A DNA stretch of 39,110 nucleotides from IMG/VR virus record IMGVR_UViG_3300023179_000245, positions 1-39,110 of that record; one strand, 5' to 3'. The stretch's first letter is position 1. Each line of letters opens with the position of its first letter. The translations under genes and the position numbers were made by a program. The notes below the pieces were generated by a model. It ran no database searches and had not been told where the DNA came from. It was given only the letters and a program-made list of their open reading frames with translations. Positions 1-39,110 of the stretch are shown one piece after another. Origin of the DNA: a virus.

Positions 1-3000
1 GTGTACAAGGCATACAGGGCGTACAAGGCATACAGGGCGTACAAGGCATACAAGGTGTACAAGGCATACAAGGTGTACAAGGCATACAAGGTGTACAAGG
101 TATCCAGGGCGTACAAGGTATCCAGGGTGTACAAGGTATCCAAGGTGTACAAGGTATCCAAGGTGTACAAGGTATACAAGGTATTCAAGGATATAGTATT
201 ATATGGAAAGGAACTTGGGATTCTTCTACAACATATTATCAAAATGATGTAGTATTCTATGATGGCGCTTCATATATTGGAGTTAATACTACTCCAACTG
301 GTTTCACAAATCAAAGACCTGAAACTAATGATGTAGTTAATACCACATATTGGAATATGATGACCAGCCAAGGTATCCAAGGTATCCAAGGTGTACAGGG
401 TATTCAAGGTGGTCAAGGTATACAGGGCGTTCAAGGTATACAGGGCGTTCAAGGTATACAGGGTATTCAAGGTGTACAGGGTATTCAAGGTGTACAGGGT
501 ATTCAAGGCGGTCAAGGTATACAGGGTGTACAGGGTATCCAAGGTGTACAGGGTATCCAAGGTGTACAGGGTATTCAAGGTGTACAAGGCATACAGGGCG
601 TACAAGGTATTCAAGGTGTACAGGGTATACAAGGTGTACAGGGCATACAAGGTGTACAAGGTATACAGGGTGTACAAGGTATTCAAGGTGTACAGGGTAT
701 TCAAGGCGGTCAAGGTATCCAAGGTGTACAAGGTATCCAAGGTGTACAGGGTATCCAAGGTGTACAGGGTATCCAAGGCGGTCAAGGTATACAGGGTGTA
801 CAAGGTATCCAAGGTGTACAGGGTGTACAAGGTATTCAAGGTGTACAAGGTATCCAAGGTGTACAAGGTATCCAAGGTGTACAAGGTATCCAAGGTGTAC
901 AAGGTATCCAAGGTGTACAGGGTATCCAAGGCGGTCAAGGTATACAGGGTGTACAAGGTATACAGGGTGTACAAGGTATTCAAGGTGTACAGGGTATCCA
1001 AGGCGGTCAAGGTATACAGGGTGTACAAGGTATTCAAGGTATTCAAGGTGTACAAGGTATTCAAGGTGTACAAGGTATACAGGGTGTACAAGGTATTCAA
1101 GGTGTACAGGGTGTACAAGGCTTCCAAGGTACTAAGGGTGAGGGCTTTACATTCTTGGGTGATTGGAGTTCAATCACAAGATACGTTAAGAACGACTCTG
1201 TTTACTATAATGGATCAAGCTATACCAGCACATATGGTGATGAAACCTATGCTGGCGGCGCTTATGTTAACCTAAACCAAGTTCCAGGTAGCCTAGTAGA
1301 TATTACAGGTGTGGGCCTAACAGCTACCAGCGGTGTGTTTACTTGTAATGCTGTCAATATTTACAAAGCTGAAATTATTAGAGTCAGTGGTACAGTACCA
1401 GCTGGATTTACCATTGAGAATCCAGATAGTCCCGCCCAAGCACCAACATATTATACAGCTGGACAAACTGTTAATAATGATTACTATGTAATTGATTATC
1501 CAAACAACCCAGCTACTGGATTTACATTGGGTCGTAGCCAATTCGCTACAACAGCTATTGGTACTACTGGAACAGGTAGCTTAACAGGATTAACATTCAA
1601 GGCTATACCATGGTTGATCATTAGTGCTCAAGGCATTCAAGGCGTACAAGGTGTACAAGGTATACAGGGTGTACAAGGTATACAGGGTGTACAAGGTATA
1701 CAGGGCGTTCAAGGTATACAGGGCGTTCAAGGTGTACAGGGTATTCAAGGTGTACAAGGACGCCAAGGTGTACAAGGTATTCAAGGTGTACAGGGCGTTC
1801 AAGGTATCCAGGGTGTACAAGGTATTCAGGGTATTATTGGTACACCAGGTGGGTATACAGCAGCCTACTTATGGGATAGTGCAACTACAGCCAGTGACCC
1901 AGGACCAGCTAATGTTAGAATAGGTCGCAGCTGGACTACAACCACTGCTGGTAATACTAACTTATATTTTGATATCATAGACGCAGATGGTCAGGATAGA
2001 ACAGCTTGGTTAAGCGCATTTACATTCTTCGGTTCACAACAGAGCTATTTTGGTACACTAACAATAATGCCAGAAGGTTCATCAAACCAAAGATGGTCAG
2101 GTATTATTACCAGTGTAACCAATAATACTGGATGGTTCAATATTGGTGTATTGTTTATTGACAGTCAAGGTACAGCACCAACAGCAGGGCAAAAAGTTAA
2201 CATAGCATTCCAGCCAGCTGGTCAACAAGGTATTCAAGGCGTACAAGGTGTACAAGGTATACAGGGTGTACAAGGTATACAGGGTGTACAAGGTATACAG
2301 GGTGTACAAGGTATTCAAGGTGTACAAGGTATTCAAGGTGTACAGGGCGTACAAGGACGTCAGGGCGTACAAGGTATTCAGGGCGTACAAGGTATACAGG
2401 GCGTACAAGGTATACAGGGCGTACAAGGTATTCAAGGTGTACAAGGCATACAAGGTGTGCAAGGCATACAAGGTGTACAAGGTATTCAAGGTGTACAAGG
2501 CATACAGGGCGTACAAGGTATTCAAGGTGTACAGGGTATACAAGGTGTACAAGGCATACAAGGTGTACAAGGTATACAGGGTGTACAAGGTATTCAAGGT
2601 GTACAAGGCATACAGGGCGTACAAGGCATACAGGGCGTACAAGGTATTCAAGGTGTACAGGGTATACAGGGTGTACAAGGTATACAAGGTGTACAAGGTA
2701 TTCAAGGTATTCAGGGTTCAAGTATTGTTTGGAAAGGAGTATATTCTCCAACTACAATTTATAACACTAACGACGTAGTATTTGAAAATGGACAGAGTTA
2801 CATTGCCGTATATGGTAGTGGTAATAGTGCTAACCTTACTGGTGTTGCTATTGGATCAAGTGGATCATTTACTTGTACCGCGGGAGCAACTCTAAGAGTT
2901 GGTGATCAGATTACTGTATTAGGCGTTAACACTGGCACTGGCTCTATTACAGGCTACAACAGTGCTGGCACAAATTACTACATTACAGCTACAAATGGTT

Positions 3001-6000
3001 CAACATCATTCACCTTAAGTGCTACATTAGGTGGTGCAGCAGTAACAACCAGTGCTGGTACAGTAGCAGGTGGCATGATCTTTACACATCCAACAGGATT
3101 TGGAAATCAAAGACCAACAATAACCAATACTACATATTGGAACTTGATGACCAGTCAAGGTATCCAAGGTATCCAAGGTGTACAAGGCATACAAGGTGTA
3201 CAGGGTATCCAAGGCGGTCAAGGTATTCAGGGTGTACAAGGTATTCAGGGTGTACAAGGCATACAAGGTGTACAAGGTATCCAAGGTGTACAAGGTATAC
3301 AGGGCGTACAAGGTATTCAAGGTGTACAGGGCGTACAAGGTATACAGGGTGTACAAGGTATTCAAGGTATTACTGGTCTTGGTATTACTTGGAAGGGTAC
3401 TTGGAATAGTACAACTATTTACAACAGCAATGACGTTGTATTTTATAATGGTAATAGCTGGATCGGTGTTCGTGGTACAGGCAACAGCGTAGCCCTTTCA
3501 GGTGTAAGCATTGGCGCAAGCGGTGTAATCACATGTACAGCAACAACATTGCCAGCAGGATTCCAAGTTGGTGACCAAGTATTAGTAGCAGGTATCAATA
3601 GTGGAACTGGATCATTACCAAGCTATAATGCTGTTGGTACTTATTATTATATTATTAGTACAAATGGTTCAACCTCATTAACCATAAGCACAACATTAGG
3701 TGGAAGTGCTGCTGCTACAGCCGCTGGCACCGTTAGTGGAGCAATGACCTTTACTGTGGCTACAGGCTTTGGTAATGTCATTCCAAACCTAACCAATACA
3801 AACCATTGGAACCAAATGACCAGCCAAGGTATTCAAGGTATCCAAGGTGTACAAGGTATCCAAGGTGTACAAGGTATACAGGGCGTACAAGGTATACAGG
3901 GCGTACAAGGTATTCAAGGTGTACAAGGTATACAGGGCGTACAAGGTATTCAAGGTGTACAAGGTATACAGGGCGTACAAGGTATTCAAGGTGTACAAGG
4001 TATTCAAGGTGTACAAGGTATTCAGGGCGTACAAGGACGTCAGGGCGTACAAGGTATCCAGGGCGTACAAGGTATCCAGGGAGTACAAGGTATACAGGGC
4101 GTACAAGGTATACAGGGCGTACAAGGTATACAGGGTGTACAAGGTATACAGGGTGTACAAGGTATACAGGGTGTACAAGGTATACAGGGTGTACAAGGAC
4201 AACAAGGTATTCAAGGTTCAGGCTTTAAGTGGCGTGGTGTTTGGAAGCCAGAGAATGACTATGCTGTCAGTGACATGGTTTCACATTTGGGTAGTACATA
4301 TGTTAGCTTAACAGCATATATTCCACAAACTTTAGCCAGTGTATCAATATTAAGTAGTGGTCAGATTAGCTTTAATAATCCAACAAATGCTGCCTCTGTT
4401 GGTCAGGTTATATATGTTAATGGTGTTAAGACTGGATCAGGTGTATTACAAAATTATGCTAGTACAGGGACAGCCTATTATGTTAAGGCTGCTAGTATTG
4501 CTGGTGGAACAACTACAGTAACATTAAGCGGTGACGCTCCAAGAAGTAATGTAACAGGTACATTAAGTGGCACAACAATAAGTGGATTAGCTACTACTAG
4601 TACTTTATATGTTGGAATGTCTCTAACCAAAGTATCAGGAACTGGTGTTTTCAATGGAACTCCAACTATCACTGCTATTAATAGTTCCACACAAGTTACT
4701 ATAAGCACTTCAGCTACGTCAAATGGATCAATAACATTTAACGCAACTGGAGCTACAATAACTAGTACTGCTGGAACAAGTACGGGAATGAGTTTCTATA
4801 TTCCAACTTATGTTCCTAACTTACATACCAGTACAGTATACAATGCACTTGGTCCTAGTCCTGAATCAGAATATGAAAGATGGGAATTAGCGGGTTCACA
4901 GGGTATCCAAGGTATTCAAGGTGTACAAGGTATTCAAGGTGTACAGGGTATTCAAGGTGTACAGGGTATTCAAGGAGTACAAGGTATACAAGGTGTACAA
5001 GGTATACAGGGTATTCAAGGTTCAAGCTTTACTTGGAAAGGCATCTATTCAGCTAGTACCAGCTACTCAGCTAATGATAGTGTGTTCTATAATGGTAACA
5101 GCTATATTGCTATATATGGTAATGCTAATAGTGAAAACTTAAATGGTGTAAGTATTGGAAACAGCGGTACATTTACTTGTTCAGCAACAACTAAGACATT
5201 AGTAGTTGGAACAGGTGTTAAGGTAACTGGTATAGCAGCTGGTACAGGAAATATTAGTGGATTCTCAGATCCAACAACATACTATATTACTGCTACGAAC
5301 GGAAGTACAAGCTTTAACCTAAGTGCTACACTTGGCGGAGCACCAGTAACAACAACCTCGGGCACCAGTACTGGTTTAACATTTATGTGGCCAGTGAGCT
5401 TTTCTAACCAAGTTCCAGCAAATGGTCAGCCACCAGTAACTAATAGTACATATTGGAATCAGTTAACAAGCCAAGGTATCCAAGGTATTCAAGGTGTACA
5501 GGGTATTCAAGGTGTACAAGGTATACAGGGTGTACAAGGTATACAAGGTGTACAAGGTATTCAAGGCGTACAAGGTATTCAAGGCGTACAAGGTATCCAA
5601 GGTATCCAAGGCTTCAGCGTAACATATCAAGGTGCTTACAATCCTTCTACAACTTATACACAGAATGACGTAGTATTTGAAAATGGACAGAGTTGGATAG
5701 CTATATGGCCAATAACAACTGGAACATTTAGTAATATTCGTCCAGGTGTTACAGCAGGTTGGGCCACATATTGGGGCAGATTAAGTCAACAAGGTATCCA
5801 AGGTGTACAGGGTGTACAAGGTATTCAAGGTGTACAAGGTATTCAAGGCGTACAAGGTCGTCAAGGCGTACAAGGTATTCAAGGTGTACAAGGTATCCAA
5901 GGCGTACAGGGTATCCAGGGTATCCAAGGTTTAAGCATTAATTGGATAGGTACATATAACCCAGCAACAGCCTACAGCCAGAATGATGTAGTATTTGAAA

Positions 6001-8237
6001 ATGGTCATAGTTGGATTGCTATCTATCCATATGCTAATGGTACATTTACAAATATCAGACCAGGTGTTACAGCAGGTTGGGCCACATATTGGAATATGAT
6101 GACCAGCCAAGGTATCCAAGGTGTACAGGGTGTACAAGGTATTCAAGGTGTACAAGGTATTCAAGGCGTACAAGGTCGTCAAGGCGTACAAGGTATTCAA
6201 GGTGTACAAGGTATCCAAGGCGTACAAGGTATCCAAGGTGTACAGGGTATACAAGGTGTACAGGGTATACAAGGTGTACAGGGTATACAAGGTGTACAGG
6301 GTATACAAGGTATACAGGGCTTCAGTGTAACTTATAGAGGAATATATAATCCTTCCACAGTATACACACAGAATGATGTAGTATTTGAAAATGGACAAAG
6401 CTGGATTGCTGTATATCCAATAACAACAGGCACATTTAGTGGACAGCGTCCAAGTCTAGCAAATACAACGTACTGGGGTCAATTAACAAGCCAAGGTATT
6501 CAAGGTGTACAAGGTGTACAGGGTATACAAGGTGGTCAAGGCATACAGGGTGTACAAGGTATCCAAGGTATCCAAGGTGGTCAAGGTATCCAAGGTGTAC
6601 AAGGTATTCAAGGCATACAGGGTGGTCAAGGTATACAAGGTGGTCAAGGTATCCAAGGTATTCAGGGTGGTCAAGGTATTCAGGGTATACAAGGTGGTCA
6701 AGGTATACAGGGCGTCCAAGGTGTACAAGGAATCCAAGGTGGTCAAGGTATACAGGGTGTTCAGGGCATACAGGGTATTCAGGGCTTCAGTGTAACCTAC
6801 AGAGGTATCTACAATAACGCTACTGTATACACACAAAACGATGTAGTATTTGAAAATGGACAAAGCTGGATTGCTGTATATCCAATAACAACAGGCACAT
6901 TTAGTGGACAACGTCCAAGCCTAGCAAATACAACATACTGGGGCCAACTAACAAGTCAGGGTATCCAAGGTATCCAAGGTGTACAAGGCATACAGGGTGG
7001 TCAAGGCATACAGGGTGTACAAGGTATCCAAGGTATCCAAGGTGGTCAAGGTGTACAAGGTGTACAAGGTGTACAAGGCATACAGGGTGGTCAAGGTATC
7101 CAAGGTGTACAAGGTGTACAAGGCATACAGGGTGGTCAGGGTATACAAGGTGTACAAGGTATACAAGGTGTCCAAGGTCGCCAAGGTATCCAAGGTGGTC
7201 AGGGTGTACAAGGTGTACAAGGTATCCAAGGTATCCAAGGTGGTCAAGGTATACAGGGCGTCCAAGGTGTACAAGGTATCCAAGGTGGTCAAGGTATACA
7301 GGGTGTACAGGGTGTACAAGGTATCCAAGGATTCAGCGTAACATATCAAGGTGTATACAACAATACGACAACTTATACACAAAACGATGTAGTATTTGAA
7401 AATGGACAAAGTTGGATAGCTATATATCCTGTAACTACAGGGACATTTAGTGGAATAAGACCAGGAGTAACAGCGGGTTGGGCTACTTATTGGGGCAGAT
7501 TAAGTCAACAAGGTATCCAAGGAATTCAAGGTGGTCAGGGTATACAGGGCGTTCAAGGTATTCAAGGTATCCAAGGTGGTCAGGGTATACAGGGCGTTCA
7601 AGGTATTCAAGGTATCCAAGGTGGTCAGGGTATACAGGGCGTTCAAGGTATTCAAGGTATCCAAGGTGGTCAGGGTATACAGGGCGTTCAAGGTATACAG
7701 GGAGTCCAAGGTTATCAAGGTACTCAAGGCGTCCAAGGATTCCAAGGATTCCAAGGATTCCAAGGTTATCAAGGTACTCAAGGTCAGCAAGGTATACAGG
7801 GTCAACAAGGTACTCAAGGTCAGCAAGGTATACAGGGTCAACAAGGTACCCAGGGTCAACAGGGCATCCAAGGTCAACAGGGTACCCAAGGTCAGCAAGG
7901 TATACAGGGTCAACAAGGTACCCAAGGTCAACAAGGTGTACAAGGTCGTCAAGGCGTACAAGGAACTCAAGGTCAGCAAGGTATACAAGGCTTCCAAGGA
8001 TACTATGGTAATACAGGTGCTCAAGGTACTACAGGTACTACAGGTACTACAGGCTTACAGGGATTACCAGGACCACAAGGTACAGATGGTACTCAAGGTT
8101 CAACCGGAGCACAAGGTTCAACTGGAGCACAAGGTGCAGATGGAACTATTGGAACATTAAGTCTAGCCCAAATAAAGGCTGCGGTAAACAGTAGTCCAAC
8201 ATACGAAGAGTTTGTGGCATATATTCAAGGGTTGTAA
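1..8237 (+). CDS. Giant collagen-like tail fibre with CBM5/12-like inserts (5' end outside window)
   Basis: The reading frame (first full codon at 3) is open to the left edge, so the ATG at 357 is an internal methionine and the gene is 5'-partial; about 2,744 residues are visible. Thirteen Gly-X-Y tracts, mostly GIQGVQ hexapeptides, alternate with 12 globular inserts at about 192-368, 1135-1628, 1836-2225, 2715-3158, 3372-3824, 4218-4898, 5022-5471, 5613-5789, 5931-6107, 6321-6491, 6783-6956 and 7331-7508. Eleven of these carry a motif like [13 protein letters not shown] preceded by W-x-G-x-(Y/W) and followed by a W near the end, which resembles CBM5/12 chitin-binding modules. Four inserts carry an additional beta-rich module ([16 protein letters not shown] type). 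The C-terminus switches to GQQGTQ repeats, then a proline-containing GLPGPQG stretch and a short non-collagen end. Expected to be a trimeric, host-contacting fibre on the virion. The collagen and CBM-like reading is firm; the exact receptor is unknown. Confidence 0.93.
6321..6956 (+). repeat. Duplicated CBM-like inserts (6321-6491 and 6783-6956)
   Basis: The two inserts share long stretches of nearly identical DNA, for example around the NDVVFENG motif and the following [16 protein letters not shown] segment, with only scattered, mostly synonymous changes. The related inserts at 5613-5789 and 7331-7508 also resemble each other, with a shared [15 protein letters not shown] end. This suggests domain duplication or recombination through the flanking collagen repeats. 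Confidence 0.85.
7530..7709 (+). repeat. 45-nt perfect tandem repeat inside the fibre gene
   Basis: A 45-nt unit coding for [15 protein letters not shown] starts at 7530, 7575, 7620 and 7665. The first three copies match exactly, including synonymous positions, and the fourth diverges in its last third. This looks like a very recent tandem duplication. Confidence 0.9.
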
Positions 8238-11392: not shown

Positions 11393-12136
11393 ATGCAAGA
11401 ACTAGGAATGTATTGCCTATCATATGTAGGCAAAGAACCAAAAAAACATCAGTTTGACCAGCGCAATTTAATGTGCGGTTCGGTCAATTACCATCAATTT
11501 GACGTTTTAGAGATGCAGCGTCGTGGTTTCCTTATGGATCACGTAGGTGAAAACATTAGTCATATGAATAGTGACTTTGGTAGCCTAACTGGAATATTTT
11601 GGGTTTGGAAAAACGTAGACCATGAATATAAAGGGACTAATACCTATAGAATTTTTTGGGATGAATCTTTTGATTTAAGACCAAATAGGGTATATATTCC
11701 ACAACCAAAAGACATAGTAACTGCTATAAAAGGCTATGCACCTCATGTAAACAGTGTGTATGATCATTTTAGTCATTGTCATAATAACTTAGGATGGCAG
11801 CTATTATATGGCCTAGCAGGAGATAGACGTATTCCTATTACTGTAGATATGATAGATCAATTAAGAACTTACAAATATCTAATTCCATTCCATATGTTTA
11901 CTAGTGATAGAATAACATTTAATCGTATTTGTGAAATACTTTTTCAAGTATTATTTGAATTTCATTCAAATTATTCAAATATTTTACCTGAAATATACAG
12001 GCGTAATCAACAGGTTAGGTTTTATGACTTTTTTGGTGAGAGAATATTACACTTGATTTTAACTAACAACTATCATTTTTTAGGAAATGTAGATATAGCA
12101 CATTTAAATATATTGGACATTGACCATAATGCTTGA
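11393..12136 (+). CDS. DUF4422-type glycosyltransferase
   Basis: A 247-residue protein. The segment GENISHMNSDFGSLTGIFWV followed by WKN and Y-R-I-F matches the DUF4422 hallmark (NIS..N....LT..YW.WKN...HYRR) found in capsule and exopolysaccharide glycosyltransferases, and FYDFFGERILHLIL matches its conserved C-terminal R-x-x-G-F-x-x-E-R-x-L block. It probably transfers a sugar in the cytoplasm, either to a virion component or to a host glycan. There is no signal peptide or membrane segment. It is the first gene of a three-gene run with the methyltransferase and GT2-like genes, behind a sigma70-like promoter. The second Arg of the usual HYRR is not clear (T-Y-R-I-F here). The ATG lacks a Shine-Dalgarno; an in-frame ATG at 11408 is the alternative start. 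The acceptor is unknown. Confidence 0.75.
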   Translation: MQELGMYCLSYVGKEPKKHQFDQRNLMCGSVNYHQFDVLEMQRRGFLMDHVGENISHMNSDFGSLTGIFWVWKNVDHEYKGTNTYRIFWDESFDLRPNRVYIPQPKDIVTAIKGYAPHVNSVYDHFSHCHNNLGWQLLYGLAGDRRIPITVDMIDQLRTYKYLIPFHMFTSDRITFNRICEILFQVLFEFHSNYSNILPEIYRRNQQVRFYDFFGERILHLILTNNYHFLGNVDIAHLNILDIDHNA

Positions 12137-13382
12137 AAATAAAATACAACCACATTTATTAAGATATATTGAAAACCCATCAGATCCAGAATTAAATTTT
12201 ATGATGGCTTTAGAGTATGATGTGATGGGCCAACATGCCAGTGCTGTCAGTTATTACTTAAGAACAGCTGAAAGGGCACATACTGATCTGCTAAAATATG
12301 AAGCTTTAATTAGAGCAAGCATTTGTTTTGAAAGACAGGGTAGTAGGAACTTTACAGTGAAAGGATTACTACAACATGCTGTAGCTATATTACCAGGTCG
12401 TCCAGAAGCTTACTATCATCTAAGCAGATTTTATGAACACAAACAGGATGATGGGCATTGGAATGATACTTATATGATTGCCACTGTTGGTGAGAGTGTA
12501 GCAGACAATATTAGTGAAGGGTTAAGAACAGATTTAAGTTATTTGGGCAAAGATCATTTAAAGTTTCAAAAAGCACTAAGTGGTTGGCATTGTGGATTAT
12601 GTGATGAGAGCAGAACAATATTTAAAGAGCTTATGCGTAGTAAAGTACTCCCTAATGATTATAAAAAAATTGTATATAATAATTTAAAGTTTATGAGTGG
12701 TTATATTGAGATACCTTTTGATGCTTATGACAATACTAAATATTCTAAATTAAGATATAAATTTCCAGGTGCTGAAAATATTGAAACAAATTATAGTGAA
12801 GCATATCAGGATATGTTTGTTCTTAGTATGCTTAAAGGTAAGAGAGAAGGTACTTTTATTGAGGTTGGTGCAGGTAGACCATTTTACGGAAATAATACTG
12901 CTCTACTAGAAAAACAATTTGGATGGAGAGGCATCAGTATTGATATTGATGAACGTCAAGTTACTAACGATCGTAAAACACCATTCCTAATTAAAAATGC
13001 CTTAGAAATTGATTACGGTAAAATTATCACAGAATTAAACTTAGGCCCAGTAGTTGACTACCTACAACTTGATTGTGATCCACCTGAAGTAACATTTGAA
13101 ATACTAAAACGTATTCCTTTTAATGAATACAAATTCAAAGTAATAACATATGAACACGATTATTATAATACAGACAAAAAAGAATTACGTGAACAGTCTC
13201 GTCAATATTTAGAATCAAAAGGCTATACACTAGTAGTAAATGATATTGCACCAGATGAATGGCGTAATTATGAAGATTGGTATGTGCATCCGGATTATAT
13301 TGATAAAGATATAATGTTGGTAATGAAAGATCGCCGTGATATAGTGAAAAAAGGCGAAGACTATATTTTATCAGGAAATTAA
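12129..13382 (+). CDS. TPR-like plus FkbM-family methyltransferase fusion
   Basis: A 417-residue protein starting at the ATG that overlaps the previous stop by 8 nt; the TTG three codons earlier (12120) is a weaker choice. Residues ~1-190 are helical with alternating A, Y and R typical of TPR-like repeats (LNFMMALEYDVMGQHASAVS, EAYYHLSRFYEH). Residues ~215-400 form a SAM-dependent methyltransferase of FkbM type: SEAYQDMFVLSML, then motif I FIEVGAGRPFYGNNT (about 242-256), the acidic strand end ISIDIDE, VDYLQLDCDPPE and VITYEHDYY. This architecture is familiar in T4-like aquatic phages near glycosyltransferases. It probably O-methylates a sugar. Substrate unknown. Confidence 0.82.
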   Translation: MLENKIQPHLLRYIENPSDPELNFMMALEYDVMGQHASAVSYYLRTAERAHTDLLKYEALIRASICFERQGSRNFTVKGLLQHAVAILPGRPEAYYHLSRFYEHKQDDGHWNDTYMIATVGESVADNISEGLRTDLSYLGKDHLKFQKALSGWHCGLCDESRTIFKELMRSKVLPNDYKKIVYNNLKFMSGYIEIPFDAYDNTKYSKLRYKFPGAENIETNYSEAYQDMFVLSMLKGKREGTFIEVGAGRPFYGNNTALLEKQFGWRGISIDIDERQVTNDRKTPFLIKNALEIDYGKIITELNLGPVVDYLQLDCDPPEVTFEILKRIPFNEYKFKVITYEHDYYNTDKKELREQSRQYLESKGYTLVVNDIAPDEWRNYEDWYVHPDYIDKDIMLVMKDRRDIVKKGEDYILSGN

Positions 13383-13385
13383 TTT

Positions 13386-14165
13386 ATGATTCCAGTAATA
13401 GGTACCTGTGTAGTTTTTACTACACATTGGGTTGAACGTTTATTAGCCAGCGTAGATTTCCCTGTAGAAAATTTCCTTATTATTAATAACAATGGTAAGG
13501 GAGAAATTACAGAAGACTTAGATGCATTGGCTAATATCAAACGTCATTATATTAAAAAAGTTCATGTTATTCATATGCCTTGTAATTTAGGGGTTCCAGC
13601 AAGTTGGAATCTAATAATTAAAAGTTATATGATGGCTCCATATTGGGTAATTGTAAATGATGATGTAGCATTTGGTTTAGGATTATTAAAAGAAATATAT
13701 GACACTGTTAACGAAGACCCAGAGGTAGGTATTATACATGCTAATCAAGGTGATTTTAATGTGGGTAGTTGGGATCTCTTTATTTTAAGAGATCACCTTG
13801 TGGCTAAATTTGGGCTGTTTGATGAAAATATGTATCCTGCCTATTGCGAAGATGACGATTATATTATGCGTATGATGCATGCCGGAGTGAAGAAAAAGCT
13901 AGGCTTAACTAAAAATTATCTACACGGACACGGCGATAAGACCGAATACCATTTCCATGGTGGTAATACACGAAGGCACGATCCTGAAGTTATGAAAAAG
14001 TTGGATGAGGCTAGAGATATGAACATAGAATATCTCACATCAAAGTGGGATAAACACTGGCGTACCTGTTGGCCCACACAAGAACCATGGTTAGGTCAGC
14101 CGCATAGTTTGACTGAACAAAGATATGATTTGGAATTTTTACGTAAAAAGTATGTAGGATTTTAA
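13386..14165 (+). CDS. GT2-like glycosyltransferase
   Basis: A 259-residue protein, three bases after the methyltransferase stop. It has the GT-A layout: a hydrophobic N-terminal strand (PVIGTCVVFT), a conserved N-L-G-x-x-x-x-W-N segment (NLGVPASWNLI, residues ~76-86), a metal-binding motif in DxD position as VNDDV (residues ~89-93), and the acidic motif EDDDY at about 154-158, where the catalytic base of GT2 enzymes is expected. Many His residues follow (HGHGDKTEYHFHGG). Soluble, no membrane segments. It probably works with the DUF4422 and FkbM proteins upstream. Its stop overlaps by 4 nt the stop of the convergent Nudix gene, and no terminator is visible between them. Confidence 0.8.
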   Translation: MIPVIGTCVVFTTHWVERLLASVDFPVENFLIINNNGKGEITEDLDALANIKRHYIKKVHVIHMPCNLGVPASWNLIIKSYMMAPYWVIVNDDVAFGLGLLKEIYDTVNEDPEVGIIHANQGDFNVGSWDLFILRDHLVAKFGLFDENMYPAYCEDDDYIMRMMHAGVKKKLGLTKNYLHGHGDKTEYHFHGGNTRRHDPEVMKKLDEARDMNIEYLTSKWDKHWRTCWPTQEPWLGQPHSLTEQRYDLEFLRKKYVGF

Positions 14166-14596
14166 AAAAAGTTCATTATTTCAAAAACAATATGTAGTTT
14201 TTGTCTAATCATTTTATTGCTTAGGCTGCTTTTTAATCCTTGATGCAAAGGCTTAGGAGTAAAATCTATATTAGTCCAACTATATCCGCAATGCTCTTTG
14301 CTTAATGTTGGAACAAATTCATTTTTTACTACACATAGGTAAGTATGAAAATTAAACACACTATCATTACTGACAAAAGTTTCTAATGGTATGCTTTTAA
14401 TTATTTCTGGCTGTAGTCCAAGTTCTTCTTTAATTTCTCTAGTAAGACTTTGCCAAGCATTTTCACTTTCTTGAGCAGTGCCACCTACCAAGCTCCAAGT
14501 TCCTTGATGTTTACCTAATGCTTTTTGTAATAATAAAATACGTTTAGTTGAATTAGCATAAAATAATGCTCCACTACAAACAATTTGATTCTTCAT
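14162..14596 (-). CDS. Nudix hydrolase
   Basis: A complete Nudix box GX5EX7REUXEEXGU is present: G39-T-A-Q-E-S-E45 ... R53-E54-I-K-E57-E58-L-G60-L61, counting from the chosen start. Nudix enzymes hydrolyse nucleoside diphosphates linked to another group, such as oxidised dNTPs, ADP-ribose or NDP-sugars; substrate specificity cannot be read here. The start chosen is the ATG that overlaps the gp15 stop as ATGA (14593-14596), the usual sign of translational coupling; an in-frame ATG five codons earlier (14609-14611) is also possible and gives 149 residues. It is odd to find it as the last gene of a gp14-gp15 structural transcript. The strand and order imply late expression, unless it also has its own promoter. 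Confidence 0.88.
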   Translation of the reverse strand: MKNQIVCSGALFYANSTKRILLLQKALGKHQGTWSLVGGTAQESENAWQSLTREIKEELGLQPEIIKSIPLETFVSNDSVFNFHTYLCVVKNEFVPTLSKEHCGYSWTNIDFTPKPLHQGLKSSLSNKMIRQKLHIVFEIMNFF

Positions 14597-16230
14597 AAAA
14601 TTAAACGCCATTGTCCTCTGCGATATTCACCTTCAAAACTTTTAACCCAAGTTAGGCCATTCCATTTGTATTGTACGTTGCTGTGAATATTTGTAAGGTA
14701 TTTAATATTATCCCTATTAGCAGTACTATCAAATATAATTTGCCACTTTGACCCAGTCCATTCTATAATATCATTAGCATTGGCTACAGTATCAGATCCA
14801 TCAAGATTTTTCCAAGCATCTGGTCCGTCCTCATTAACATGCAATACATATGTGATGACGTCATTAACTTCTGCATCTCTGTTTAGTCTTATTACTAACT
14901 TATCATCGATATTAAGCGAAGTGAATAATACTGCGTTATCATTGACATATACTTCAACATCTCTAACTAAAACAAAATCTATTGTAGTATCTATTCTATT
15001 ACTGGCTACTTCGGCGATTAAAGTTTCTCTGTGACCACCACCTATACTATCTACTAGTAAGTACCTAGTTCCTACTGATGGAACAGGTAGTCCACTATTT
15101 GGGCCTTTGGCTGTGGGATCTATAATTGCATCAAAAGTTCCAGGACTTGAATTTCTGTAACCAGTATCTATATCTGTATTACTAGGATATGTATCTGTAT
15201 TCCAATTAATATTTAAAATACTAGCATCCATAGGATTTATAGCTATAGTTCCTACTACTTCAAAACCTGATTGTTGGCGTAAAAATATCTTACTTTCGCC
15301 GGCTGTATATTTGTTAGGATATTTGTCAATGATTTCATACCAACTTACAGCATTTGAAGAATCTAAACCTGTTTCTCTTATTTGAAGATTAAGGTGTCCT
15401 TTTTCAGTAGGACCAAAAATTTTAGCTTGCCCTCCGTAGACAACCAGATCGTAATCTATAATTTCTATTATTACTGGAGTGGCAACTTCTTCGTCAAAGC
15501 TCACTGATCCTTCACTAGGATCCTGACCAAATCCCTCCAAATATCCATCAGCAGCATCACCAATGTTAGTATACATTCCCGTAACTATACTGGATACTAT
15601 GCCTAGTTTTTTAACTTTACTAGGAGGGCTAATCCAAATAGGCATACTAAAAGTTAATGTGGCTATATCTATTTGACTTTCAGGACCTACAGGTATCTGT
15701 CTACCACTAAATTGAACATCTTCTAAATATACTACGCTAAGGCTAGTCCAATCAACATAATTATCTGTAGTTTGTATTTCAAGACTGGGATTAAACAACA
15801 TCAAAATTTGTTCTAAAATCTGTAATTTTTGTTCGGTGTTCCCAGCCCATATATCAGCTTTAACAGTGAGTTTATATGGGCTTGGCATTAATCGTTCTAT
15901 AGTATAATTTGCACCTTGTGTGCTAGTGTATTTGCCATCTTCCACAGCACGTTCTCTTATATGTACTTTGCCTACAAATGTTGGATCAGCTAAACGATCC
16001 TTTTCCATCTCTAATCCACTTACATAAACTGCTATACGTGGAGCACCGTTAATTTTATTTTCACTATTTTGTTTTATTAAATTAGCTACCTGACGATCCA
16101 TATCTCCGTACATTACAGGAACCTGTACTAATCTACCATCCCCATACTTTACAACAAACTTACTTAAAAGTCTTATTGTTTGTATTAGATATCTTCTTAT
16201 TTGACCATCATAGAAAAACTGAATAATAAT
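14593..16230 (-). CDS. 15: Tail sheath stabiliser/completion protein gp15 (non-canonical start)
   Basis: The core (SPYKLTVKADIW, QILEQILMLFNPSLEIQ, LTFSMPIWISPP) aligns with T4 gp15, which caps the tail and joins it to the neck. The first ATG in frame is at 16113, but the 39 codons upstream are clearly gp15 too: FFYDGQIRRYL matches T4 gp15's YFYN..FRRY and LVQVPVMYGD matches its IRVPITYA. Between the in-frame TGA at 16231-16233 and 16113 there is no ATG, GTG or TTG; only three tandem ATT codons (16222-16230) precede CAG-TTT-TTC. The start is therefore placed at ATT 16230 as the limit, giving 545 residues. No Shine-Dalgarno is at normal spacing. The C-terminal ~280 residues are an extension absent from T4 gp15 (272 aa), ending in TWVKSFEGEYRRGQWRLIL. 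The identity is firm; the start is not. Confidence 0.87.
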   Translation of the reverse strand: MIIQFFYDGQIRRYLIQTIRLLSKFVVKYGDGRLVQVPVMYGDMDRQVANLIKQNSENKINGAPRIAVYVSGLEMEKDRLADPTFVGKVHIRERAVEDGKYTSTQGANYTIERLMPSPYKLTVKADIWAGNTEQKLQILEQILMLFNPSLEIQTTDNYVDWTSLSVVYLEDVQFSGRQIPVGPESQIDIATLTFSMPIWISPPSKVKKLGIVSSIVTGMYTNIGDAADGYLEGFGQDPSEGSVSFDEEVATPVIIEIIDYDLVVYGGQAKIFGPTEKGHLNLQIRETGLDSSNAVSWYEIIDKYPNKYTAGESKIFLRQQSGFEVVGTIAINPMDASILNINWNTDTYPSNTDIDTGYRNSSPGTFDAIIDPTAKGPNSGLPVPSVGTRYLLVDSIGGGHRETLIAEVASNRIDTTIDFVLVRDVEVYVNDNAVLFTSLNIDDKLVIRLNRDAEVNDVITYVLHVNEDGPDAWKNLDGSDTVANANDIIEWTGSKWQIIFDSTANRDNIKYLTNIHSNVQYKWNGLTWVKSFEGEYRRGQWRLIL

Positions 16231-33633: not shown

Positions 33634-34086
33634 ATGTGGTATTCTAAAATACTTAAAGATATAACTGTACTGCCCGATGCTATTGAATACTATAATGATG
33701 AGTTAGTGCAAGCCAAATTAGATATCCGTATAACGGGAAATATTGAAAAGGCTGCTGCCAGTATGCCAGGCATTGTAGAACATAGATTCGGGCAGTTACA
33801 GGAAATTGAGGCTATTTTAGAGTACTTAAACATTGAACTTCGTCAACTTAAAAGCCAACATTTTCGCAAGTATTTAGAAAACTATCAACGTGCCTTAAGT
33901 AGTAGAGATTGTGAAAAATACGTAGATGGAGAAAGCGATGTAGTTGATATGGAAAAGATCATCAACGAATTTGCTCTACTACGTAATAAATGGTTAGGTA
34001 TCACAAAGGCACTTGATGTCAAGCAATGGCAGCTAAGTAATGTTATTAAATTACGTACTGCTGGTATGGAAGACGCAACACTATGA
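33634..34086 (+). CDS. uvsY: UvsY recombination mediator
   Basis: A 150-residue helical protein. FGQLQEIEAILEYLNIELRQ, HFRKYLENYQRALSSRDCEK, YVDGESDVVDMEKIINEFAL and DVKQWQLSNVIKLRTAGMED match the UvsY form of cyanophage-type T4-like phages as I recall it; T4 UvsY (137 aa) is more distant but has the same helical layout and a similar C-terminal half. UvsY helps load UvsX onto gp32-coated ssDNA. The ATG at 33634, two bases after the previous stop, is preferred over the TTG two codons upstream. No Shine-Dalgarno is visible, so it is probably translated by coupling. Confidence 0.85.
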   Translation: MWYSKILKDITVLPDAIEYYNDELVQAKLDIRITGNIEKAAASMPGIVEHRFGQLQEIEAILEYLNIELRQLKSQHFRKYLENYQRALSSRDCEKYVDGESDVVDMEKIINEFALLRNKWLGITKALDVKQWQLSNVIKLRTAGMEDATL

Positions 34087-34093
34087 GGATAAA

Positions 34094-34444
34094 ATGAATG
34101 AGGAAATAAAGAAAACTTTTGATACAGTTAACTTAATGAACAGTTTAAATAATCAAAAGCAGATTTTATACGAGGAATTTAATCAAAGTTTATTGTACTA
34201 CTATAATGGTGCAGTATTTACAGTTAATATAGCTTTATTATCCTTTATTGGCAACTATCTTTATATGGAAAAAGATAGTGTTGTATTACTTGATGACAAC
34301 AAAATGCCAATATTAGTAAATGATATTCCTGAATTTCATAGAAATATTACAGCTATATATACTGAAGCTACAAATCGTTACTTTTACGAGTATAATAAAG
34401 TAACACATCCAAAATTTATAAGTTCACTAGTTAATAATGACTAA
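34094..34444 (+). CDS. Small conserved phage protein downstream of uvsY, function unknown
   Basis: A 116-residue protein starting MNEEIKKTFDTVNLMNSLNN, with AGGAT just upstream; the longer reading from 34040 overlaps uvsY in another frame and is unlikely. A hydrophobic stretch GAVFTVNIALLSFIGNYLY (about residues 42-60) could be a buried helix or a single membrane segment. It is followed by a short beta-like VVLLDDNKMPILVNDI and a helical end. Similar small proteins occur near uvsY in cyanophage-type genomes as I recall. Function unknown. An 8-nt overlap links it to the first gene of the glycosyltransferase-like cassette. Confidence 0.7.
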   Translation: MNEEIKKTFDTVNLMNSLNNQKQILYEEFNQSLLYYYNGAVFTVNIALLSFIGNYLYMEKDSVVLLDDNKMPILVNDIPEFHRNITAIYTEATNRYFYEYNKVTHPKFISSLVNND

Positions 34445-35243
34445 AGGTATATTAATATTTGCACAAGGTCAAGATATAAATTATCTTAGTCTAGCTAAAA
34501 TAGCGGCTAAAAGGGTAAAATATTTTTTAGATCTACCAATTAGTGTAGTCGTCGATTATGATTATGATAATAATGATAAAATTTTTGATCAGGTAATTAA
34601 GAAAAGTACCAATAAAACTCAATCAAGAATTATTCATGATGGTGAAAATTCTAAAAAAATAAAATGGTACAATTTTGATAGATCAGATTGCTTTGAACTA
34701 ACACCGTATGATGAAACTATTGTTATAGATTCAGACTATATTATTAATTCAAAACATCTTTTACGTTGTTTTGATTTGAATAGTGATCTTTTACTCTTTA
34801 AAAATCATTATCATTTATTAGGAAATAGATATAATTCTATATTCACTTATATAAATGAATTTGGAATCCCTTTTTATTGGGCTACAATTTTTTATTTTAA
34901 AAAAACAAACTTTACTAGATCCTTTTTTAATTTAGTTCAATATATTAGAGAAAATTGGACTTACTATTCATTATTATATCAAATTAAAGATCCTAAATTT
35001 AGAAACGATTTTGCTTTTAGCATAGCAGTAAACCTAATGACATTACACATGACTTCTGATAATTTTGGGTTTATACCAGGTAAGTTATATTATGTAATTG
35101 ATCGAGATGAATTAATAGATATTAAAGATGATAAACTAGTGTTTTCTATGAAATCTTCGGATCAGTCTAATATTTTTTCACAAACTAGTATATTGGATGT
35201 TCATATTATGAATAAAGAAAGTATATTGAGGGTATTAGAATGA
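34437..35243 (+). CDS. GT-A-like glycosyltransferase family protein 1 of the right-hand cassette
   Basis: A 268-residue protein. It opens GILIFAQGQDINYLSLAKIA, resembling the next gene's HVIFAQNSSINYVRQAYALA, and has IVIDSDYII at about residues 98-106: a hydrophobic strand ending in DxD, the typical metal/sugar-nucleotide site of GT-A glycosyltransferases. Next come a predicted acceptor-side region rich in aromatic residues (NHYHLLGNRYNSIFTYINEF) and NDFAFSIAVNLM, which is like the conserved (D/N)-x-x-(A/S) helix of GT8-type proteins. It is very A+T-rich compared with uvsX and gene 32. No membrane segments are obvious. The fold assignment is by motif only. Possible targets are fibre proteins, DNA bases or host glycans; none is proven. 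Confidence 0.7.
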   Translation: MTKGILIFAQGQDINYLSLAKIAAKRVKYFLDLPISVVVDYDYDNNDKIFDQVIKKSTNKTQSRIIHDGENSKKIKWYNFDRSDCFELTPYDETIVIDSDYIINSKHLLRCFDLNSDLLLFKNHYHLLGNRYNSIFTYINEFGIPFYWATIFYFKKTNFTRSFFNLVQYIRENWTYYSLLYQIKDPKFRNDFAFSIAVNLMTLHMTSDNFGFIPGKLYYVIDRDELIDIKDDKLVFSMKSSDQSNIFSQTSILDVHIMNKESILRVLE

Positions 35244-36055
35244 GCATGGGTCATGTTATTTTTGCACAGAATTCTTCAATCAATTATGTTAGACAAGCAT
35301 ATGCTTTAGCGTTAAGCATTAAAAAGTATAATACAATCAATAATGTTTGTTTAATAACAAATGATTCAATTCCATTAGAATATATTAGTGCTTTTGATCA
35401 TATAGTTAAGATACCTTGGGGTGATATGTCTAAGGATAAAGAGTGGAAAATTGAAAATAGATGGAAAATTATCTATTGTACTCCGTTTAGTAAAAACTTA
35501 GTCTATGATGCTGATATGATTTTGTTGAATAGTAATGATCATTATTGGTATCACTTAGAAGATTATGAAATAGCTCTCACTGAAACTGTAAGAAATTATA
35601 AAGGTAATAAAATAATATCAAAGGATAATCCCTATCGTAAGGTGTTTTATAATAATGATCTTCCAGATATATATTTTGGATTACATTATTTTAAAAAATC
35701 ACCTTTAAGTTTTTCTTTTTATAAATTTTTAGAGCATATGATTAAAGAATGGCCTCTCTTTTCAAAAGAGTTTACTAAATTTAACACACAGAAAAATCCC
35801 AGTTTAGATGTTGCAAGTGCTATGGCTTTAAAATTCGGTAATTTTTATAGAAAGAATAATCTTTTAAGTTTTATACATATGAAACCATTAGTTCAAGAAT
35901 GGACAAGTACTTCAGTAGATAAATGGCAAGATCATGTAGTATATAATTGGTCTGATGATTTATCTTTAAAAATTGGTAATTATAATCAATCTGGATTATT
36001 ACACTATATTGATGATGAGTTTTTAACAGATAGTTTAATTGAAAAGTTAAAATAA
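35240..36055 (+). CDS. GT-A-like glycosyltransferase family protein 2, paralogue of the preceding gene
   Basis: A 271-residue protein overlapping its neighbour by ATGA. It opens MSMGHVIFAQNSSINYVRQA, then AYALALSIKKYNTINNVCLI, which is the usual start of GT8-like proteins (array of small residues before a K-x-Y/N strand). LVYDADMILL (about residues 90-99) is the DxD motif. IYFGLHYFKKS and LDVASAMALKFG fit later GT8 elements. It is clearly related to the previous gene by its N-terminus and overall order. Probably a soluble sugar transferase. Donor and acceptor unknown. Confidence 0.72.
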   Translation: MSMGHVIFAQNSSINYVRQAYALALSIKKYNTINNVCLITNDSIPLEYISAFDHIVKIPWGDMSKDKEWKIENRWKIIYCTPFSKNLVYDADMILLNSNDHYWYHLEDYEIALTETVRNYKGNKIISKDNPYRKVFYNNDLPDIYFGLHYFKKSPLSFSFYKFLEHMIKEWPLFSKEFTKFNTQKNPSLDVASAMALKFGNFYRKNNLLSFIHMKPLVQEWTSTSVDKWQDHVVYNWSDDLSLKIGNYNQSGLLHYIDDEFLTDSLIEKLK

Positions 36056-36056
36056 T

Positions 36057-36593
36057 ATGGACAATATTTTCGATATCTCTTCCTTATCTTTACCAGAAAT
36101 TAAGTTTTATCTTTATTACGATAATGATGGAAATATATTAGAGTTATTAGATTATAAAAAAGATAATGGAAATTATATTGAAGTAAGTGAACAGTTTGTA
36201 GTTGAATTTAGAGAAAGTGGAAAAGAATTTCATTCATATTCTCTTGAAATAGATGATAAGCCTAAAATTATTAAAAAATTAGAAAATGTACAGATCGGTC
36301 AGTTATTTAAAATATTAACAATGAACAGTCTAGCTGATTTTATAATATCTGTAACTAGTACTAAAATGATATTTAAAATTCGAGAGTTTGATCCTTACTC
36401 AAATATATCTGATAATTTTGAGCATTTTTTCTTTATTGTTGACAATAATGACTTGAATTTTTTAAAAAAAACTGTTATTATAAAGCATAAGGATTTAAAA
36501 CAAGGTTATGAATTAGATTATAACTTTATATTAAGAGACGAATCAATCCTTACTAAAAAATATTTTGAGTCATATGGGTTAAGTTATGATTAA
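36057..36593 (+). CDS. Hypothetical protein in the glycosyltransferase-like cassette
   Basis: A 178-residue protein, very A+T-rich, starting one base after its neighbour's stop. It has a predicted beta-rich composition (EIKFYLYYDNDGNILELLDY, NYIEVSEQFVVEFRES) and FFIVDNNDLNFLKKTVIIKH. No family is recognised and no signal peptide, membrane segment or catalytic motif is evident. Its place between two pairs of DxD-motif proteins, with an 8-nt overlap to the next gene, suggests a shared role. Confidence 0.65.
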   Translation: MDNIFDISSLSLPEIKFYLYYDNDGNILELLDYKKDNGNYIEVSEQFVVEFRESGKEFHSYSLEIDDKPKIIKKLENVQIGQLFKILTMNSLADFIISVTSTKMIFKIREFDPYSNISDNFEHFFFIVDNNDLNFLKKTVIIKHKDLKQGYELDYNFILRDESILTKKYFESYGLSYD

Positions 36594-37515
36594 AACAATA
36601 AAATTATTTGATTGTGATGTTATATATTTGAGTTATGATGAACCAAATAAAGAGCGTAATTACGCAGATTTACTCACCAAAGTACCTTGGGCTAAACGTG
36701 TTGATGGAGTTGAAGGTAGTGATAGCGCACATAAGGCCTGTGCTAGACTAGCAGAAACAGAACGTGTAACTATTATTGATGGTGATAATATCATTAAACC
36801 TGAACTATTGAATCAGGTTATAGAACTAGCAGGCCATGCAGATCCTAATATATGTGTCTTATCATTCCCAGCGAATAATATAATTAATGGTCTTATATAT
36901 GGCAATGGTAGTGTTAAAAACTGGCCTACACAATTAGTTTTGGATATGAAAACACATGAAAATGCAGAACCTTCTAATGATAAAACACAGGTAGATTTTT
37001 GTTGGGAAATAAAATATTTACAAATGAAAAATTGGATGAGTTGGGTTTATAACAATGCCAGCCCTAGACAAGCCTGGCGTGCTGGTTTTAGAGAAGGTGT
37101 TAAGATGTGTCTAATGGAAGGGATTAAACCAACATTAGATAAACCATTTGATAAGCAGGTGCACTGGAAAAACTATCATAGATTAGTTACTTGGATGAAT
37201 GTAGGCAGCGATGTAGATAATGGCTTATGGGCTATATATGGTGCAAGACTTGGATGTTATATGACCATGCTTACTGATTGGGATCATATTAATGTTAGAA
37301 CATTTACTTTTCTAAATGATTTATTTGAAGATTTAAAACCAAATGATAATAAAACATTGATTAAAGAAATTAATAGACTAGGTGAAACATTACGTGATCA
37401 ATTAGGAATATTAACTGGTCCAGGTTATATGGATCCAGATCAAAGCAAATTTTTTAAAGCAGTATATACCAATCCCCCTAGATTGAGCAATGATTGGACA
37501 ATTGAGAATGTATGA
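36586..37515 (+). CDS. Putative glycosyltransferase-like protein 3 (DGDN motif)
   Basis: A 309-residue protein. CDVIYLSYDEPNKERNYADL opens the protein, then VPWAKRVDGVEGSDSAHKAC and VTIIDGDNII (about residues 63-72), a DxD-type strand end. GNGSVKNWPTQLVLDM, RQAWRAGFREGVKMCLMEG and GLWAIYGARLGCYM complete a pattern shared with the next gene. I recall this family from cyanophage genomes as uncharacterised proteins. The GT-A-like reading rests on the N-terminal strand order and the DxD site. The substrate is unknown. Confidence 0.72.
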   Translation: MIKTIKLFDCDVIYLSYDEPNKERNYADLLTKVPWAKRVDGVEGSDSAHKACARLAETERVTIIDGDNIIKPELLNQVIELAGHADPNICVLSFPANNIINGLIYGNGSVKNWPTQLVLDMKTHENAEPSNDKTQVDFCWEIKYLQMKNWMSWVYNNASPRQAWRAGFREGVKMCLMEGIKPTLDKPFDKQVHWKNYHRLVTWMNVGSDVDNGLWAIYGARLGCYMTMLTDWDHINVRTFTFLNDLFEDLKPNDNKTLIKEINRLGETLRDQLGILTGPGYMDPDQSKFFKAVYTNPPRLSNDWTIENV

Positions 37516-38185
37516 TGTTATATTCATAAGTTATAAAGAGCCCAATGCAGAGGAAAATTGGAATTCCTTGATCAAAAGATTTCCTTTATCTAAAAGAATA
37601 CATGGTGTTCAAGGAATACATCAAGCTCATATAGCTGCTGCCAAATTAGCTAACACTAGAATGTTTTGGGTAGTTGATGGCGATGCTGTTATTTTAGATA
37701 AATTTAATTTTGATTTTAGAACCACTAATTTTGATACAGTACATGTTTGGCGAAGTCGTAACCCTATTAATGATTTAGAATACGGTAATGGTGGTGTTAA
37801 ATTGTTGCCCACAAAAATGACAATTGATATGGATTTATCCAAACCAGATATGACCACCAGTATAAGTGAAAAATTTATTCCTATGAAAAATATCAGTAAC
37901 TTGACTAATTTTAATAGTGATCCATTTAATACTTGGAAAAGTGCTTTTAGGGAATGTTGCAAATTAGCAAGTAAAGTTATTGATAGGCAAAAAAGTGAAG
38001 AAACTGAACATAGATTAAATGTTTGGTGTACAAAAGGTGCGAACAAGACATATGGTAACTATGCCATTGATGGCGCAATAATGGGAAAGAATTATGGTGA
38101 GTTACATAAAAGGTCGATTATGGATCTTAAAAAAATAAATGATTTTGATTGGCTGTTTTCTAAGTTCAAGGAAATATATGAGTGA
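37508..38185 (+). CDS. Putative glycosyltransferase-like protein 4 (DGDA motif), paralogue of the preceding gene
   Basis: 225 residues from the ATG at 37508, which overlaps the previous stop by 8 nt; an ATG six codons earlier (37490) is less likely because MYDVIFISYKEPN aligns with the start of the preceding family member. KRIHGVQGIHQAHIAAAKLA and MFWVVDGDAVILDKFNF (DxD) align with the same blocks of the neighbour, as do YGNGGVKLLPTKM and FNTWKSAFRECCKLAS. The C-terminal half is shorter than the neighbour's. It is probably a duplicated, diverged copy working in the same pathway. Confidence 0.75.
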   Translation: MYDVIFISYKEPNAEENWNSLIKRFPLSKRIHGVQGIHQAHIAAAKLANTRMFWVVDGDAVILDKFNFDFRTTNFDTVHVWRSRNPINDLEYGNGGVKLLPTKMTIDMDLSKPDMTTSISEKFIPMKNISNLTNFNSDPFNTWKSAFRECCKLASKVIDRQKSEETEHRLNVWCTKGANKTYGNYAIDGAIMGKNYGELHKRSIMDLKKINDFDWLFSKFKEIYE

Positions 38186-39110
38186 AAAGGGTAATAATGT
38201 AGAGTTCTTATTAGGTGTAGAAGACTATCTAAGGTATTTAGATAATGCTAGTTATGCTGATAGATTACACACTTTTTCTAGGACAATAAATTCAGAGTCA
38301 AAAGAAGAAGATAGTATACGGGCATTTTTTCAAGATTTTGGGTCAGTATTACAAAAGGATCATAGAAATTATGCTGATTTATTACATGGGTTTTGTAAGA
38401 ATTCAGATGCAATCTCGTTAAAAAAAATAAGTTTACATTTTTTTGGCAAAATTATAACTGATATTAATCTAGTAGATTTTATTTTTGGTATCCTTAAGGG
38501 ACAATCTAATATTGGATTTTATAAAGCTACATTACAATATGTTATAAAATTAAATCTTCATAATTTAATTTTGAATGATTTAATACATGGCATAACTACT
38601 AAGGCTGAATCGAATGAATTGGTTTATAAATCATTATTACAATATGTTCTAAAATTAAATGTTAATGGTTTAGAATTAAATGATTTAATACATGGCATAA
38701 CTACTAAGGCTGAATCGAATGAATTGGTTTATAAATCATTATTACAATATGTTCTAAAATTAAATGTTAATGGTTTAGAATTAAATGATTTAATACATGG
38801 CATAACTAAGGCTGAATCGAATGAATTGGTTTATAAATCATTATTACAATATGTTCCAAAATTAAATGTTAATAGTTTAGAATTAAATGATTTAATACAT
38901 GGCATAACTAAGGCTGAATCGAATGAATTGGTTTATAAATCATTATTACAATATGTTCTAAAATTAAATGTTAATAGTTTAGGATTAAATGATTTAATAC
39001 ATGGCATAACTAAGGCTAATTCAGAAGAAACTGTATATAAATCATTATTACAATATGTTCTAAAATTAAATGTTAATAGTTTAGAATTAAATGATTTAAT
39101 ACATGGCATA
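38178..39110 (+). CDS. Tandem-repeat protein, 3' end outside window
   Basis: The ATG at 38178 overlaps the previous stop by 8 nt, and the frame stays open to the right edge (311 codons visible). The N-terminal ~110 residues (VEFLLGVEDYLRYLDNASYA, SIRAFFQDFGSVLQKD) are helical. A degenerate repeat follows, and then near-identical 34/35-residue repeats of the form NDLIHGIT-KAESNELVYKSLLQ-YVLKLNVN(G/S)LEL. The period and the Leu/Ile spacing suggest an alpha-helical solenoid, as in TPR or HEAT-type arrays, but the sequence matches neither consensus that I can see. It is co-oriented and overlapping with the glycosyltransferase-like cassette, so it may be an adaptor or an acceptor. No function is known to me. 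Confidence 0.8.
   Translation, partial: MSEKGNNVEFLLGVEDYLRYLDNASYADRLHTFSRTINSESKEEDSIRAFFQDFGSVLQKDHRNYADLLHGFCKNSDAISLKKISLHFFGKIITDINLVDFIFGILKGQSNIGFYKATLQYVIKLNLHNLILNDLIHGITTKAESNELVYKSLLQYVLKLNVNGLELNDLIHGITTKAESNELVYKSLLQYVLKLNVNGLELNDLIHGITKAESNELVYKSLLQYVPKLNVNSLELNDLIHGITKAESNELVYKSLLQYVLKLNVNSLGLNDLIHGITKANSEETVYKSLLQYVLKLNVNSLELNDLIHGI
38574..39110 (+). repeat. 102/105-nt tandem repeat array at the right edge
   Basis: The 21-mer that encodes NDLIHGI recurs at 38574, 38679, 38784, 38886, 38988 and 39090, so unit lengths are 105, 105, 102, 102 and 102 nt. The 3-nt change is loss of one of two ACT codons. Middle copies are almost identical at the DNA level. The array continues past the window. 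Confidence 0.93.

Follow-up and report, generated by a model that had tools for sequence, protein, structure and literature searches.

Class I SAM-dependent methyltransferases such as Rv2258c, NodS and RebM, together with the spermidine synthase fold, resemble the relatives of the protein described here in their predicted C-terminal fold and in conserved columns reminiscent of a SAM site. The relatives, however, add a long N-terminal solenoid, and our window, a 39,110-base IMG/VR virus record, holds only the N-terminal part. The sole relative in a named phage, annotated as a putative methyltransferase, is Mosig_00090 (QOI69054.1) of Pelagibacter phage Mosig EXVC030M. Its homology is distant and concerns the C-terminal domain (24.8%, E 6e-7), and its island carries radical-SAM-type, aminotransferase, carbamoyltransferase and Asp/Arg-hydroxylase genes; it differs in having no solenoid, a length of about 225 aa and other neighbouring genes. 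Glycan islands in the host-recognition cluster of pelagimyophages combine glycosyltransferases, GT8 being the commonest, with radical-SAM cassettes, and their authors favour O-chain modification (PMC7029224), whereas the cassette of the window follows uvsX/uvsY, belongs to another phage lineage and keeps a fixed synteny. The moraphages (PMC12619734) are jumbo phages of fresh water, of 307 kb at most, whose core includes four glycosyltransferase orthogroups. They are alike in being aquatic and of jumbo size and in this core set of four putative glycosyltransferases, but some relatives here lie on contigs of up to 399.8 kb, above that maximum. Repeats of the PPR, TPR and TALE type share with ours the 34-35-residue unit, two helices per unit, near-identical tandem units and a local 3Di likeness to designed PPR; they differ in that no sequence profile matches, the global structural match is poor and the solenoid of the window's family is net acidic.

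The large terminase of the window is closest to those of the jumbo phages PA5oct/MIJ3 (54.6%), and neither a tRNA nor an Rfam element was found in the window. An ORF at 32341 is RecA/UvsX-like, as judged from its sequence, and one at 33628 matches a UvsY-like PHROG (E 3e-16). The gene order that follows is 34040-GTa-GTb-36057-GTc-GTd, with the repeat ORF directly downstream of GTd:

34040..34444, + strand, small conserved cassette protein
34437..35243, + strand, GTa, a paralogue of GTb
35240..36055, + strand, GTb, glycogenin/GT8-like (weak; invariant DxD)
36057..36593, + strand, conserved cassette protein without assigned function, between GTb and GTc
36586..37515, + strand, GTc, GT2-like (weak Glycos_transf_2)
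37490..38185, + strand, GTd, GT2-like paralogue of GTc; in relatives it immediately precedes the repeat gene
38168..38173, + strand, AAGGAA, Shine-Dalgarno-like by sequence, just 5' of the ATG at 38178
38178..39110, + strand, repeat ORF, N-terminal solenoid part of the predicted solenoid-methyltransferase protein (from the ORF and its homologues), with no stop codon before the contig end
38178..38369, + strand, N-terminal cap, aa 1-64, common to L002, L004, L006 and L087
38370..38468, + strand, diverged repeat unit, aa 65-97 (repeat HMM 36.7 bits)
38469..38570, + strand, diverged repeat unit, aa 98-131 (repeat HMM 41.1 bits)
38571..38675, + strand, repeat unit 1, 35 aa
38676..38780, + strand, repeat unit 2, 35 aa, sharing a 130-bp exact repeat with unit 1
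38781..38882, + strand, repeat unit 3, 34 aa, L to P variant
38883..38984, + strand, repeat unit 4, 34 aa
38985..39086, + strand, repeat unit 5, 34 aa, ANSEET variant, about 90% identical to the other units
39087..39110, + strand, start of unit 6, 8 residues, cut by the contig end

From its ATG at 38178, the repeat ORF shares 8 bp with the end of GTd; this overlap with the preceding stop and the AAGGAA just upstream support the start. The readable ORF spans 311 residues, comprising the cap, two diverged units, five complete near-identical units (aa 132-303, window 38571-39086) and eight residues of a sixth, at which the array runs off the end at 39110. The initial annotation had described five or more near-identical copies of a helical repeat running off the window; this description holds, and the two older diverged units extend it. 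TRF gives the array a period of 102, 5.6 copies, 94% matches and a score of 964. When the first 117 aa are aligned locally with the repeat consensus, the score is 68, a value reached by none of 1000 shuffles (mean 29, sd 6.8), and the units fit the pattern D-L-[IF]-[HF]...K...K-LL-Y..K, while the cap motif of the family (EFLLG-E-YL...QDF) is present as well. No family match to the repeat was found in Pfam, PHROG, NCBIfam or PDB, in keeping with the earlier statement that no family could be recognised, and PDB searches with ORF, family and repeat profiles, including a two-unit profile, returned nothing relevant. Matches to DUF6612, DUF4209, VapC and function-unassigned PHROGs were sub-threshold, scattered and inconsistent, and were rejected as compositional.

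Neither a direct peptide-pattern scan of viral contigs nor tblastn against phage records found relatives of the window protein. They were reached among IMG/VR records through the neighbouring gene: a scan with GTd yielded 80 loci, in three of which (L002, L004 and L006) the next ORF after the GTd homologue encodes a homologue of the repeat protein. L002 is 67% identical over the first 174 aa, and its contig ends inside its own array; identity falls to 35% over 312 aa for L004 and 30% over 315 aa for L006. L083, L085, L087, L089, L090 and L094 joined the set when the cap alignment and the family alignment served as queries, and in L083 and L085 the homologue likewise stands directly after that of GTd. 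All complete repeat-bearing relatives (L004, L083, L006, L085, L090, L094, L089 and L087) end in the methyltransferase domain, the conserved domain of about 200-217 aa that closes complete family members. The part N-terminal of this enzyme domain ranges from 56 aa (cap-only) to 370 aa (solenoid), most members having only a short cap. A profile-HMM search with the repeat, as the initial annotation had suggested, detects eight units in L083 and in L090, seven in L004, five in L006, three in L094, two in L089 and one in L087. No relative of the methyltransferase family was found in GTDB genomes. A degenerate DNA pattern of the second helix matched L002 and L169, the latter being rejected as a 15-codon frame. 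Within the methyltransferase family, the distant member L022:8656-9774 (also L023, L025 and L026) bears a different N-terminal helical repeat, with a spacing of about 21-27 aa and five copies of a 70-nt match that are 60-77% identical to the reference copy.

The fold is described from the model of one relative, taken as a proxy for the window protein. AF2 was run on L004 (584 aa) with a 42-member alignment, from which the window ORF was omitted because a ten-sequence alignment containing it was misaligned over the methyltransferase domain. The resulting model (pLDDT 92.1, pTM 0.85) has 22 helices (7-379), which form a predicted alpha-solenoid, followed by an alternating alpha/beta domain. This modelled C-terminal domain is of the Rossmann-type alpha/beta class and has the fold of a class I SAM methyltransferase. 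Foldseek returns SAM methyltransferases, with spermidine synthases, throughout the best 50 matches, including Rv2258c-SAH (E 4e-5), BioC, NRMT2, RebM and NodS (TMt 0.67); the best-matching viral structures, at a TMt of up to 0.87, belong to uncharacterised phage proteins. The conserved columns fit the positions of a SAM site, with AGWFGQ, an atypical glycine-rich loop, after b1, an acid ((D/E)xD) at the end of b2, AD(I/V)N after b3 and an invariant N-S-EH after b4. No curated family reaches its cut-off against this domain, Pfam Spermine_synth matching weakly in 5 of the 42 family members. Single-sequence AF2 also gives a two-helix solenoid, at low confidence (pLDDT 60), and the helical nature of the repeat stated in the initial annotation holds.

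The synteny of the cassette with the repeat/methyltransferase gene is conserved in more than 15 loci, bearing out the link to the glycosyltransferase-like genes drawn by the initial annotation. The assignments of these genes are based on weak matches: glycogenin to the GTa/GTb profile at E 0.03, and Glycos_transf_2 to the GTc family at a best E of 8e-4, the window's own GTc scoring 17.0 bits against a cut-off of 23.3 bits; no PDB relative of the GTc profile was found. Downstream of the cassette, L017 encodes radical SAM/SPASM enzymes and an Asp/Arg beta-hydroxylase (Asp_Arg_Hydrox). The protein at 36057-36593 matches no family; its relatives are 27-67% identical and keep a constant place between GTb and GTc. 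In L035:2250-3833, L068:779-2884 and L075:7044-8678, GTc and GTd matches fall in one long frame, which suggests a fusion of the two paralogues.

Based on the above data, we propose that the window ORF is probably the N-terminal part of a phage protein of the class I SAM-dependent methyltransferase fold, in which a helical cap is followed by an alpha-solenoid of variable length and then by the catalytic domain, the solenoid serving as the binding arm of an enzyme in a glycan- or surface-modification cassette. Each solenoid unit would consist of 34-35 residues folded as two helices, and the arm may bind a protein or glycan substrate or, as partner enzymes, the adjacent glycosyltransferases. The putative cassette would comprise two GT8-like and two GT2-like proteins and the methyltransferase, to which relatives add radical SAM/SPASM enzymes and the Asp/Arg beta-hydroxylase, and it may serve to build or decorate a glycan, whether of the virion or of the host surface. 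We infer such a glycan- or virion-modifying pathway from the glycosyltransferase-like neighbours, the downstream radical SAM/SPASM and hydroxylase genes, and the pelagimyophage islands. The binding scaffold proposed in the initial annotation is retained insofar as the repeat is helical, yet it is probably not free-standing, since in each complete relative found it extends the N-terminus of an enzyme with a methyltransferase fold; for the anti-defence decoy suggested there, we found no evidence.

The units of the window are far more alike among themselves than they are to those of the closest relative, L002. Units 1-4 are 97-99% identical in DNA, with unit 5 at about 90%, while their identity to the full array unit of L002 is 68.6%; the cap, GTc and GTd are 82-85% identical between the two loci, the flanking genes by themselves 83-85%. 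Synonymous divergence between the two phages is about 1.06 in GTd and about 1.15 between their units, as opposed to 0.13 between window units 4 and 5. Each array has therefore been amplified or homogenised separately, in agreement with the recent expansion noted before. L094 carries a tandem duplication of 123 bp, 94% identical, inside a 44.8-kb contig, which is a third, separate duplication event. Copy number, whose variation in relatives the initial annotation proposed to survey, ranges from one to eight units across the family by the repeat HMM but is equal within the pairs L004/L083 and L006/L085. In these pairs dN/dS is 0.16-0.20 for the solenoid and 0.08-0.16 for the enzyme domain; the solenoid is thus under purifying selection, and hence a working part. 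In the tree of the C-terminal domain, long forms are nested among short ones (two changes at the fewest), and in the GTc+GTd tree the lineages nearest the window after L002 (L113, L114, L017 and L009) carry short-form proteins, so that solenoids have been gained, lost or exchanged.

Exact repeats extend to 130 bp, and the contigs of the window and of L002 both end within an array, so the exact number of copies, taken from short reads, is uncertain and may be an assembly estimate. Collapse or expansion during assembly would mean that the recent amplification is overstated; we consider this unlikely, since the units bear distinguishing differences (35 versus 34 aa, L/P, E/G and the ANSEET unit), incompatible with a pure assembly loop, L002 has an independent array with its own consensus, and the duplication in L094 lies inside its 44.8-kb contig. 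The same contig end leaves room for a free-standing scaffold, adaptor or decoy whose methyltransferase was lost or never present. Both the window ORF and its nearest relative, L002, stop short of the C-terminus, and the C-terminus of the window protein could differ from those of its relatives because solenoids have been gained, lost or exchanged, with short forms in the nearest lineages after L002. The window protein nevertheless shares its cap and cassette position with relatives of which all complete repeat-bearing ones found end in the methyltransferase domain, and we regard a free-standing protein as improbable; its own ORF presumably continues into such a domain beyond the point at which the contig stops.

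The unit length of 34-35 aa and the fusion to a methyltransferase fold also recall a nucleic-acid reader of the PPR/TALE type, which would guide the enzyme to RNA or DNA, and designed PPR-RNA complexes rank first in Foldseek of the low-confidence single-sequence model. These matches (best E 7e-5) were rejected as local hairpins only, with TM-scores of about 0.2-0.3 and rmsd values mostly of 16-22 A, and the two-unit profile recovers no such protein from the PDB. No PPR, TPR or TAL model of Pfam matches the window ORF at E <= 1; within the family there are two TPR-like matches, each in a single member (E 0.04-0.1). Nucleic acid is further disfavoured as a ligand by the charge of the solenoid, which is net acidic (-3 to -11) in all members checked. 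Near-identical units would, moreover, read a near-homopolymer, and the neighbours are sugar and radical-SAM enzymes. We therefore judge a nucleic-acid reader very improbable and prefer the methyltransferase with a protein- or glycan-binding arm.

Because the units are nearly identical, unequal recombination between them, or slippage during replication, would change the length of this arm rapidly. A more speculative extension, which we hold to be possible though rather doubtful, is that the phage tunes its methyltransferase through the number of N-terminal units, recombination producing populations with differing arm lengths and an altered reach for substrate or assembly, and that unrelated helical repeats (34-35 residues here, about 21-27 in L022) were acquired more than once; if that holds, retargeting phage modification enzymes by means of repeat arms would be a general strategy. 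The finding overturns nothing by itself. A repeat family that had gone unrecognised now has a setting, a sugar-modification cassette conserved in aquatic phages, and a likely role, that of a variable arm on a phage methyltransferase; the forms from cap-only to about ten units, with recent and old duplications together, offer a natural series for the growth of solenoid arrays and for binding.

Elsewhere in the window, a second cluster of three ORFs just after a fibre-like gene (11393-14165) appears by eye to be sugar- or FkbM-methyltransferase-like, and a small ORF at 14162-14611 on the minus strand, opposite to most of the surrounding structural genes, appears Nudix hydrolase-like. The left end lies in a giant collagen-like ORF (3-8237; 2744 aa, open on that side) in which small repeated domains punctuate the GIQGVQG triplets, so that both contig ends break in repetitive coding DNA.
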